A stretch of DNA of 64,000 nt, taken from contig NZ_CP045420.1 of assembly GCF_009363795.1 (NCBI RefSeq), positions 663,001-727,000 on the forward strand. Reading direction: 5' to 3'. The position numbers and the translations under genes were made by a program. This stretch comes from Palleronia sp. THAF1 (GTDB taxonomy: Bacteria > Pseudomonadota > Alphaproteobacteria > Rhodobacterales > Rhodobacteraceae). Below the pieces are notes generated by a model. The model ran no database searches, was not told the origin of the DNA, and saw only the letters and a program-made list of their open reading frames with translations. This document shows, in pieces, positions 38,576 to 52,183 of the stretch; position 1 is the first letter of the stretch; each line of letters opens with the position of its first letter.

Positions 38576-38983
38576 GGTCAGGACTCATAGCCATTAGATG
38601 ACGAGTGCTGCGAGGGCGATGGCTGACAGGAAGACCTTCGGGCACCTGTCGTAGCGGGTTGCGACGCGCCGCCAATCCTTCAACCTGCCGAACATGATCT
38701 CGATCCGGTTGCGCCGTTTGTAGCGACGCTTGTCGTACTTGACAGCTTTCTTGCGTTGCTTTCGGCCAGGGATGCAGGGCCGTATCCCTTTGTCTTTCAA
38801 CGCTTCCCGGAACCAATCGGCGTCGTAGTCGCGATCCCCGAGCAGCCAATCGACATCTGGCAGGCTGCTCAGCAATGCCCGCGCCCCGATATAATCGCTG
38901 ACTTGCCCGGCTGTGACGAACAGATTGAGCGGACGTCCCCGGCTGTCGCAGATGGCATGTAGTTTGGTGTTCCGTCCTCGGGC

Positions 38984-39006
38984 GAAACTGTCCCCCGGAC
39001 AGTTTC
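38984..39006. repeat. Family-2 hairpin element in IS copy 1
   Basis: This is a perfect palindrome with 10-base arms GAAACTGTCC and GGACAGTTTC around CCC. It lies within about 44 extra bases interrupting the transposase between GRTKG and RNTKL. The same arm layout (AAAC-nn-TCC) recurs twice in IS copy 2 with different but complementary bases. Confidence 0.75.
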
Positions 39007-39210
39007 TTCACCCCTCGAACCCCTTCGTCCGACCAATCAGACGTCCACGCCCCCCTTTTTGACGCCCAAACTGGTCGCGGTACGGTGAGCCTTCAGGTAG
39101 GTGGCGTCGATCATCACGGTCTTCTCTTCACCATGTTCGGCAGCCAGACCTGCCATCATCTGGGCGAAGATGCCTTTGTCGCTGCACCGCTTCCAGCGGT
39201 TGTAGAGCGT

Positions 39211-39256
39211 TTCAGGGGCTTACGCGGCCCCACAGGGGCCACGGTCCCCTTCAACC
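39211..39256. repeat. Family-3 hairpin element in IS copy 1
   Basis: The inner stem is GGCCCC (39226-39231) with GGGGCC (39235-39240), loop ACA. The outer stem is AGGGG (39214-39218) with CCCCT (39246-39250). The unpaired bases between stems are CTTACGC on one side and ACGGT on the other. A copy with the same unpaired bases but a different outer stem lies at 51486-51529. Confidence 0.75.
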
Positions 39257-39766
39257 GTGTGGACCGTAGGCCGAAGGGGCGTCGCGCCATCTCGACCCAT
39301 CACGATTAATGAAGATAATCCCACTCAATACACGTCTGTCATCAACGCGTGGCTTGTCGTGAGACTTGGGGGAGAAGGGCTCAAGACGCGCCATGTGCGC
39401 ATCCGTCAGCCAGAAAAGATCAGACATGTTCACCGCTCGTTTTTCGAACCGTGAATCATGCTCCTAAGCGGATATCAATGGGTCCTGACCCTAGACCTTC
39501 ACTGCTCATGAGGAAGCCGGCAGCCCGGGCGGATTGCAGGCATTCCCGCAGCTTCGCCTTGAAGCCCATCATGCGGACGGAATTGCCGTTAGCCGCAATT
39601 GATCGGTTCATGCCACACCTGCGAAGTCAGGCGGACGGACGGGCGAAAAGCGGAAATTCGTTGCATGCGTGAAATACTCGACAATTTGGGATGAGAGCAG
39701 ACTTTTGCCGTTGTCTGAAAAAGAAAGTGGCATATCGCTGCGAAGTGCTTGATGTGGCGAATGTTA

Positions 39767-50880: not shown

Positions 50881-51200
50881 CCGTCTTGAGTGCTTGGGTT
50901 GAGGGAGATCGCATCGCTAGGCCAAGCGCCGAAAGCAATTTCGGGACAAGGCAACGCTATTTCTCGGAAGCGCATGTAGACGGCCATTTTGCACGAAGCG
51001 CGCCCGGGATTCGCATCTGGAGTCCAGCGGCATAACAGGACGGCATGTCCAAGCCCGCGCCCACCCGCTACCGCACCCTGAACTGGTCCAGTTTCAACGT
51101 CGCGCTGCGTAGGCGTGGGGCTCTGACGGTCTGGTTCGACCCGTCGACGCCATGGCATGCGGCGCCCTCGGGCAAGCGTGGCGCGCAGCCGGTCTACAGC

Positions 51201-51244
51201 GGTAAGGAGGATCAGCAAACGGTCCAGCGGACCGTTTGCCCGGC
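51201..51244. repeat. Family-2 hairpin element in IS copy 2 (first insertion)
   Basis: Arms GCAAACGGTCC (51213-51223) and GGACCGTTTGC (51227-51237) enclose AGC. The extra segment of about 42 bases lies between VYSG and NAIQ and keeps the transposase frame, like the xdh copies of family 1. Confidence 0.75.
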
Positions 51245-51273
51245 GAACGCGATCCAAGCCTGCCCGACGGTGA

Positions 51274-51335
51274 AGGGTGAAGGGCGCCCCGGAAACGATC
51301 CGGGGGATCGTTTCAGCCCTGAAGGGGCGGATCCC
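51274..51335. repeat. Family-2 hairpin element in IS copy 2 (second insertion)
   Basis: Arms GAAACGATCC (51290-51299) and GGATCGTTTC (51303-51312) enclose GGG. Flanking GGGCGCCCC and GCCCTGAAGGGGC can form further pairing. The extra segment is about 62 bases and shifts the transposase frame between PTVK and VLFG. Confidence 0.75.
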
Positions 51336-51362
51336 CGGTCCTCTTCGGGCTGCCGCTTCGCC

Positions 51363-51402
51363 AGAGTGAGACAATGGAACGCCAATGGTCCGAGAGACAT
51401 TT
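51363..51402 (-). repeat. Family-4 structured element in IS copy 2 (first copy, reverse orientation)
   Basis: On the minus strand it reads ATGTCTCTCGGACCATTGGC then GTTCCATTGTCTCACT. The core CTCTCGGACCATTGGCGTTC matches the core of the copy at 51689-51731. The flanking stem is imperfect here (AAATG with CATTG). Confidence 0.65.
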
Positions 51403-51485
51403 GCGAACGGCTTCGTCGCGAGCCTGCTGAAGCGCGCGGGGCTGGTCCGGCCGGTGCCCGACCGCTCGACGCCGTGTCGTCGTCA

Positions 51486-51529
51486 GAATGAGATGGAACC
51501 GTGGCCCCGGTGGGGCCGCGTAAGTCCAT
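51486..51529. repeat. Family-3 hairpin element in IS copy 2
   Basis: The inner stem is GGCCCC (51501-51506) with GGGGCC (51510-51515), loop GGT. The outer stem is GATGGA (51490-51495) with TCCATC (51523-51528). The unpaired ACCGT and GCGTAAG are the complement of those in the IS copy 1 element, while the outer stem is different in sequence. Confidence 0.78.
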
Positions 51530-51688
51530 CGAACACTGGCCGTGCAACTGCCCGACCGCGGCAGCGGCGAGCCGCTGCACCCGCTCGTCACCTCTCGGGA
51601 TCATGCTGCGCATGACCCTGCCGGGCAGTGGATGGCGCCCATGACGGGTGGGCCTGCCGCGACGCCGTCGCCAACCGTGGCGCTGATG

Positions 51689-51731
51689 CGTTCGGATGCT
51701 CTCTCGAACCGATGGCATTCGCATCCTCACT
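51689..51731 (+). repeat. Family-4 structured element in IS copy 2 (second copy)
   Basis: Stem GGATGC (51694-51699) with GCATCC (51721-51726) encloses TCTCTCGAACCGATGGCATT C. CGTTC precedes and TCACT follows. It lies after ANRGA in the transposase remnant. Confidence 0.7.
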
Positions 51732-51916
51732 CCCGCCGCGTCGGACCGCCAGACCGTGGAAGAAGGACAGTCCCGGTGCGGGGGCAAGGAACGAGGCCCT
51801 GCGGGCCATAAAGCCCTTTGGACGGACGCTCTGGCGGAAATGGAGTGGCGACCATCGACGCAGCCACGTTGAGACCAAGATGAATGGCATGAAGCTCCTC
51901 GGTCAGACGCTCATGT

Positions 51917-51963
51917 CCGTTCGGCATCGGCCGCGGACCGATGGCGGCTCGATGCCTTACCTT
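51917..51963 (+). repeat. Family-4 structured element in IS copy 2 (third copy)
   Basis: Stem GGCATCG (51923-51929) with CGATGCC (51950-51956) encloses GCCGCGGACCGATGGCGGCT. CGTTC precedes and TTACCT follows, as TCACT does in the second copy. It splits the transposase between the LMS and DRQ region near its C-terminus. Confidence 0.7.
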
Positions 51964-52183
51964 CGACCGCCAGACCGCCGAACTCCAAGTCCGCATCGCC
52001 ATCCTCAACCGCTTCACCGCACTTAGCATCGCCGTCACGCAGACTGTCGGCTAACGTCAGGCGGGGAAAGGGGAGATCCGTTCGTCAGGCGTTTCGTGCG
52101 ACAAGGCCTAGCGTCGGCTGGCGCAATAACATCAGCGGATAGTTCCTGGGCAGGCAGAAAGGGGGCGGCTCAATCCCAAACCA

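Follow-up and report, generated by a model that had tools for sequence, protein, structure and literature searches.

The window analysed here is a 64,000-nucleotide stretch of the Palleronia sp. THAF1 genome (positions 663001-727000 of contig 1; genome of 3.34 Mb in two contigs). On its plus strand, at 50982..52108, it contains the remnant of an IS5-family insertion sequence (IS) of the ISPko1-like group, bounded by left and right inverted repeats (GGCCATTTTGCAC and GTGCGACAAGGCC) and made up of pieces collinear with an annotated IS5 transposase. Ordered matches to the intact transposase of a Limimaricola relative (L031, WP_322337851.1) correspond to residues 1-63, 67-103, 101-120, 195-278 and 281-311. 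Two pieces of the Pfam family DDE_Tnp_1_5 (profile positions 2-35 and 55-86) flank the first inserts, each scoring under the curated cut-off. A flanking CTAG pair had been taken in a preliminary description of this DNA to mark the target duplication of the host IS. As the inverted repeats sit at 50982 and 52108, with the left CTAG about 60 nt outside, this pair is not a duplication of the host IS, and no clear target duplication was found when the flanks of four related loci were inspected. Directly outside the left inverted repeat, at 50930-50945, lies a perfect hairpin, CCGAAAGCAATTTCGG, which is perhaps a further insert. Rfam gave two matches on the remnant segment, far under the gathering scores, and these were taken as chance.

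The remnant is interrupted by seven inserts of 39-62 nt belonging to four families (A twice, B and C once each, and D three times). Insert A1 (51202..51248, plus strand, edges accurate to within a few bases) is a hairpin with the arms AAACGGTCC/GGACCGTTT, and insert A2 (51276..51337, plus strand) is a hairpin with the arms AAACGATCC/GGATCGTTT; the perfect arms of these two AAAC palindromes are 11 bp and 10 bp long. They are followed by a D insert on the minus strand (51367..51407), with the core CGGACCATTGGC and an imperfect outer stem, and by insert C (51487..51532, no strand assigned), a GGCCCC/GGGGCC hairpin. Insert B (51590..51630, plus strand) has residue 120 of the transposase on its left and residue 195 on its right, and residues 121-194 are absent from the window copy, the gap falling exactly at this insert. 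Two further D inserts lie on the plus strand, at 51691..51729 with the outer stem GGATGC/GCATCC and at 51920..51959 with the outer stem GGCATCG/CGATGCC. A1 and one D are in frame.

Six of these structured segments had been recognised in the preliminary description and assigned to three families. All six are present, with their edges now refined; the seventh (B, 51590-51630) had been missed, and the families number four. The proposal that the known transposase could serve as a ruler proved sound, in that alignment with the intact relative L031, which has none of the seven inserts, defined what had been inserted. A Paracoccus yeei plasmid copy (L032) is also without the window's inserts, and carries one D and one A insert elsewhere. 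In a Marinibacterium copy (L033) an A1 insert with a different stem and common flanks occupies the same place as the window A1, accompanied by two B-like inserts. The host IS is of the same kind as ISPko1, an intact copy of which is present at locus L207; unlike ISPko1, the window copy is interrupted and without its central residues. The available part of a study in which functional Paracoccus ISs were captured places ISPko1 in the IS903 group and does not contain the word 'hairpin' (PMC3281130). We conclude that the window copy is probably a dead IS5 element into which tiny non-coding hairpin elements of four families have inserted at least seven times, in agreement with the earlier view of a dead IS5 relative holding several families of small structured elements.

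Whole-genome pattern searches found the insert families again, both in the same genome and in related genomes, as had been anticipated. Neither of the two outcomes named beforehand as contrary to the proposal was seen: the hairpins are not normal sequence in the intact relative, and they are not absent elsewhere. A second IS5-type remnant in the window, detected by transposase homology at 38700-39470 on the minus strand (locus L035), contains an A hairpin (38984..39006), located by the genome pattern search, and a copy of insert C (39219..39245; 96% over 27 nt). Family C has three copies in this genome, including the window insert.

Family A consists of AAACNNTCC/GGANNGTTT hairpins in which two variable letters mostly change together. 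Six such palindromes were found in this genome, against none for a reversed-pattern control, and 67 of 149 genomes of the bacterial family were positive, the reversed control pattern being found in 12 of the 149. Transposase homology was detected at 12 of 35 A loci (five of six in this genome, seven of 29 elsewhere) and was absent at 23. The A hairpins outside ISs (L150-L178) often have longer common flanks, of the GAACGGGCGGAGCCC type, and the inner parts of these flanks also seem to pair and covary. Family D has the core CGRACCNNTGGC within a variable outer stem. The core was matched 51 times in this genome against 25 in the control; a single D core match therefore proves little, and the analysis of D was restricted to cores with an outer stem. 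In the sequences collected, 18 of the 45 distinct CGGACC cores, together with 9 CGAACC cores, lie within an outer stem of 6 bp or more, and at least one of the 18 (L052) looks like chance. One IS5 transposase of this genome (L002, contig C1, approximately 1683883-1684971) carries a D insert in frame, which adds 12 residues and introduces no internal stop.

Family B elements are 34-47 nt long and are laid out as CCCTCTC, a stem and CTGCCGGGCAGTG. The stem was scored on 59 distinct 41-nt forms only, and 499 of 531 cells were Watson-Crick; 2000 shuffles, which ignore relatedness among the forms, averaged 372 and never exceeded 398. Slid versions of the stem yielded at most 145 paired cells. In 53 of the 59 forms a bulged A occupies position 10, and the pairs 9:26 and 11:25 to 16:20 each occur with at least two Watson-Crick types. 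B retains its fold although both arms of its stem vary in sequence.

B inserts in either orientation, usually after C and before GA. At 124 non-redundant sites, C was found at position -1 in 73%, G at +1 in 74% and A at +2 in 69%. The junctions were clean in comparison with intact IS3 relatives (L205, L208): four inserts of 38, 40, 38 and 38 nt in an IS3 of genome G013 were accompanied by no other indel, and no target duplication was found at these four aligned junctions. Hairpins were not enriched at empty B target sites (8.04 versus 8.00; 120 sites). Insertion of B usually shifts the reading frame.

The exact B pattern occurs at 9-10 places in this genome, and its reversed control at none. 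Thirty-three of the 149 family genomes were positive, this one included, with 1 to 8 places in each of the 32 others and control counts of zero in all 149; two of the positive genomes, G040 and G071, have only one long match each, lacking a clear stem. When one genome per species was scanned across 84,980 species, at least 120 matching stretches were obtained. Among the 80 matches listed, to which the counts are confined, 75 carried Rhodobacterales or unspecified alphaproteobacterial names, one was from Labrenzia and four were from other bacteria (Halomonas, Kitasatospora, Microcella and Streptomyces), the last four lacking the stem. Six viral contigs also matched B, two of them with IS3-type homology nearby.

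We assembled a census of at least 163 B instances, comprising 82 from the listed scan matches and 81 from earlier searches, and leaving aside the window's own B, locus L094 and the four stemless matches. Transposase homology lay within 600 nt of 142 of the 163 instances, within 60 nt of 120, and on both sides of 83. Among non-redundant sites, 120 of 140 had transposase homology, representing 11 IS families: IS5 (47 sites), IS3 (46), IS481 (7), IS66 (6), IS110 (5), IS256 (3), IS630 (2), and IS21, IS1182, IS6 and IS30 with one site each. In the far flanks the transposase library covers 5,421 of 331,866 bp, a baseline that is too low for ISs outside the library, since these very loci were its source. 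Pfam assigned a transposase-type family to the pieces flanking B in 28 of 30 cases (10/10, 9/10 and 9/10), L021 and L261 giving none. Other lesions in B-bearing transposases were tallied at seven loci with pieces on both sides, and three of the seven had no stop; the number is so small that only L089 is used as an example below. Alignments running through the element were inspected at 18 sites, and most of them, which cross it with a shifted reading, were left out of the counts. The suggestion in the preliminary description that such elements land in neutral DNA in general does not hold for B, which is concentrated in the transposase genes of 11 IS families and, as shown below, reuses the same codon boundaries.

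Twenty of the 140 sites were without transposase homology. They include short-stem forms located between housekeeping genes, as well as three loci (L021, L095 and L141) that appear IS-like by eye. Short-stem forms of the GGCGGC/GCCGCC type were seen between ordinary genes at L214, L251, L260, L281 and L096, that at L281 lying between apparent dnaN and recF; they may constitute a separate intergenic family. At L134 the element lies inside a gene resembling the RelE-type toxin of a toxin-antitoxin pair, and L097 combines a B element with a peptide reading, EEDEQGVQWTACPTNG, that resembles the one of insert A1.

Small palindromic elements in bacteria are known mostly as extragenic repeats, and the Rickettsia palindromic elements are palindromes inside coding sequence, some of them in frame. 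Compared by description only, the latter resemble the present elements in being inserted in coding sequence and sometimes in frame, as are A1 and one D of the window remnant and the D of L002, but differ from B, which usually shifts the frame and prefers transposases. RPE-4 and RPE-6 are named among the Rickettsia elements in the available part of PMC3733652. B is small, dispersed and non-autonomous like a MITE, and differs in having no target duplication at the four aligned junctions. As described in the parts of the sources available, REPs and REPINs are also non-autonomous, dispersed palindromes of 20-60 nt with a conserved fold (PMC3733652, PMC3116915), and REPs have an unpaired GTAG or CGTC tag at one end and lie mainly between ORFs (PMC3733652). 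B and the other families could therefore be read as new REP families moved by a RAYT, an explanation that we consider rather improbable. The size, the bulged hairpin and the dispersal without target duplication all agree with it, as does the frequent location of A hairpins outside transposases. B itself departs from the REP pattern in three respects: its ends at the 124 sites, which are fixed by the construction of the pattern, are CCCTCTC and CAGTG and have neither tag; its copy number is low, with 10 exact-pattern places here and the 1 to 8 given above for each of the other positive genomes; and it is found mainly in transposase genes, a location criterion that A, with 23 of 35 loci away from transposase homology, fits better. 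In the open-licence literature, where most papers were judged by title-level entries, no description of these elements was recognised.

The sites of B within IS5 transposases were mapped onto ISPko1, and 27 of the 47 IS5-hosted sites could be placed. Eleven of the 27 lie between residues 120 and 121, directly before DSTGIK, and three lie at or beside residue 195, before DGAYD or a variant of it. All 14 are in the sense orientation; the other 13 mapped sites are divided into seven sense and six antisense. A position matrix derived from 82 non-IS5 B sites does not include the 120/121 boundary among its 12 best positions and gives it a share of less than 1.4%. The probability of the excess is approximately 4e-15 for 11 of 27 sites, and 5e-9 for a cautious count of 7 of 23. 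The hosts of the 11 hits are divergent, with 43-87% identity over the next 60 nt, apart from L246 and L272, which are 98% identical and come from one genome. L227 and L288 likewise share a genome, and the 11 hits are therefore not 11 events. B thus recurs at identical codon boundaries in hosts that have diverged from one another.

Similar placements were observed in other hosts (a slash marks the junction): MI/DATYLK in IS427-type elements, HHT/DRGAQY, HHP/DRGAQY and VS/DNGTEL in IS3, IVT/DKLRSY in IS6, A/DGYSGFN and S/DAYGGYN in IS66, and LT/DNGIQF in IS481. We take the Asp codons of DSTGIK and DGAYD, and the Asp at these similar placements, to be catalytic. Three B hits in IS427-type elements (L046, L129 and L130) lie at KY/DKRRYKRRN, presumably not an active-site motif, and 52 of 107 IS-hosted B sites are not followed by an Asp codon in the given reading. 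B might be a homing-like element specialised on transposases and aimed at conserved active-site codons, acting as a heritable IS silencer in which recombination between hot spots removes the core; we put this forward tentatively, as a possibility with the odds against it. In IS5 such an element would be aimed at the position preceding either the first or the second Asp, and in IS3, IS6, IS66 and IS481 at the one preceding the equivalent Asp, and its target would therefore be present in almost every IS. In the window copy the central gap spans the interval between the two Asp hot-spot codons, with a single B element joining its edges. The same 120-to-195 join was found at L127 in genome G075, and in that genome L122 retains a B before DSTGIK. 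On the simplest reading, two B copies, one ahead of DSTGIK and the other ahead of DGAYD, would have recombined and thereby removed residues 121-194 of the window copy.

ISs that carry inserts have also moved. G013 contains six full-length IS3 copies (L179-L184) of 1385 bp, 99-100% identical and with the same four B inserts, and three of the six have a 3-bp duplication. No uninterrupted full-length copy of this IS3 was found in G013, where the remaining matches are shorter pieces. Two IS3 stretches of 1226 bp in the Palleronia genome are 100% identical and contain two B and one D, one of them also being without the right end. Such movement would agree with an account in which the inserts are passed over in expression and the interrupted transposases still work, and the hits at conserved codons are reminiscent of introns and inteins. 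In Magnusiomyces mitochondria, bypassed blocks have been described that are short and interrupt coding sequence at numerous positions (available part of PMC5009743). The interrupted transposases, in contrast, show no sign of coding constraint: 12 coding differences among five aligned G013 copies (L181 omitted) fall six times at first, four times at second and twice at third codon positions, and 10 of the 23 differences between L140 and L142 are at third positions, both numbers being small. B is moreover found in both orientations, and the insert lengths shift the frame. Bypass or splicing of the inserts is thus unsupported by the codon positions of the changes, and we regard it as very improbable. 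As the interrupted ISs have transposed, yet their copies show no clear coding constraint, we read the insert-bearing ISs as dead and moved in trans.

Taken more widely, it is likely that mobile hairpins are concentrated in ISs. The reason would be either that insertions elsewhere are purged or that the hairpins are aimed at ISs. Aiming is favoured by the hot spots, and plain tolerance fits the absence of constraint and the short target. In the simplest form of tolerance, insertion is widespread and survives only in dispensable ISs, and the repeated sites reflect the C/GA target together with ISs spreading with their inserts; we give this neutral account a little under an even chance. The insert-bearing copies do decay without coding constraint, interrupted ISs multiply, as the six G013 copies and the pairs in the Palleronia genome show, the target consensus of B is short, and 23 of the 35 family A loci are outside transposase homology. 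The account does not readily accommodate the 11 of 27 mapped hits at a boundary to which the matrix gives so small a share, nor the condition of some of the hosts. At L089, the IS5 that holds B shares 92-98% identity with ISPko1 and neither of its pieces contains a stop, and the IS3 of G013 has no indel other than its four B inserts.

Under the wider claim of concentration in ISs, hits would persist mainly there, where only a parasite is silenced. A putative enzyme supplied in trans would read the folded single strand and place the hairpin. Because the fold is the conserved part of B, an enzyme that reads folded DNA seems likely; our guess is a RAYT-type Y1 transposase, the REP-type Y1 transposases being the nearest model.

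That B is found mostly inside jumping genes in related bacteria, and often recurs at a small set of codons, hints that mobile DNA may be disabled naturally by a route that is little known. Since the same groups also include intact ISs, direct tests of where B prefers to insert, of which enzyme moves it and of whether it silences its host are feasible. If the interpretation is true, a transposase-dwelling family that conserves its fold, and that recurs at the same codon boundaries across 11 IS families, would represent a new kind of check on mobile DNA.
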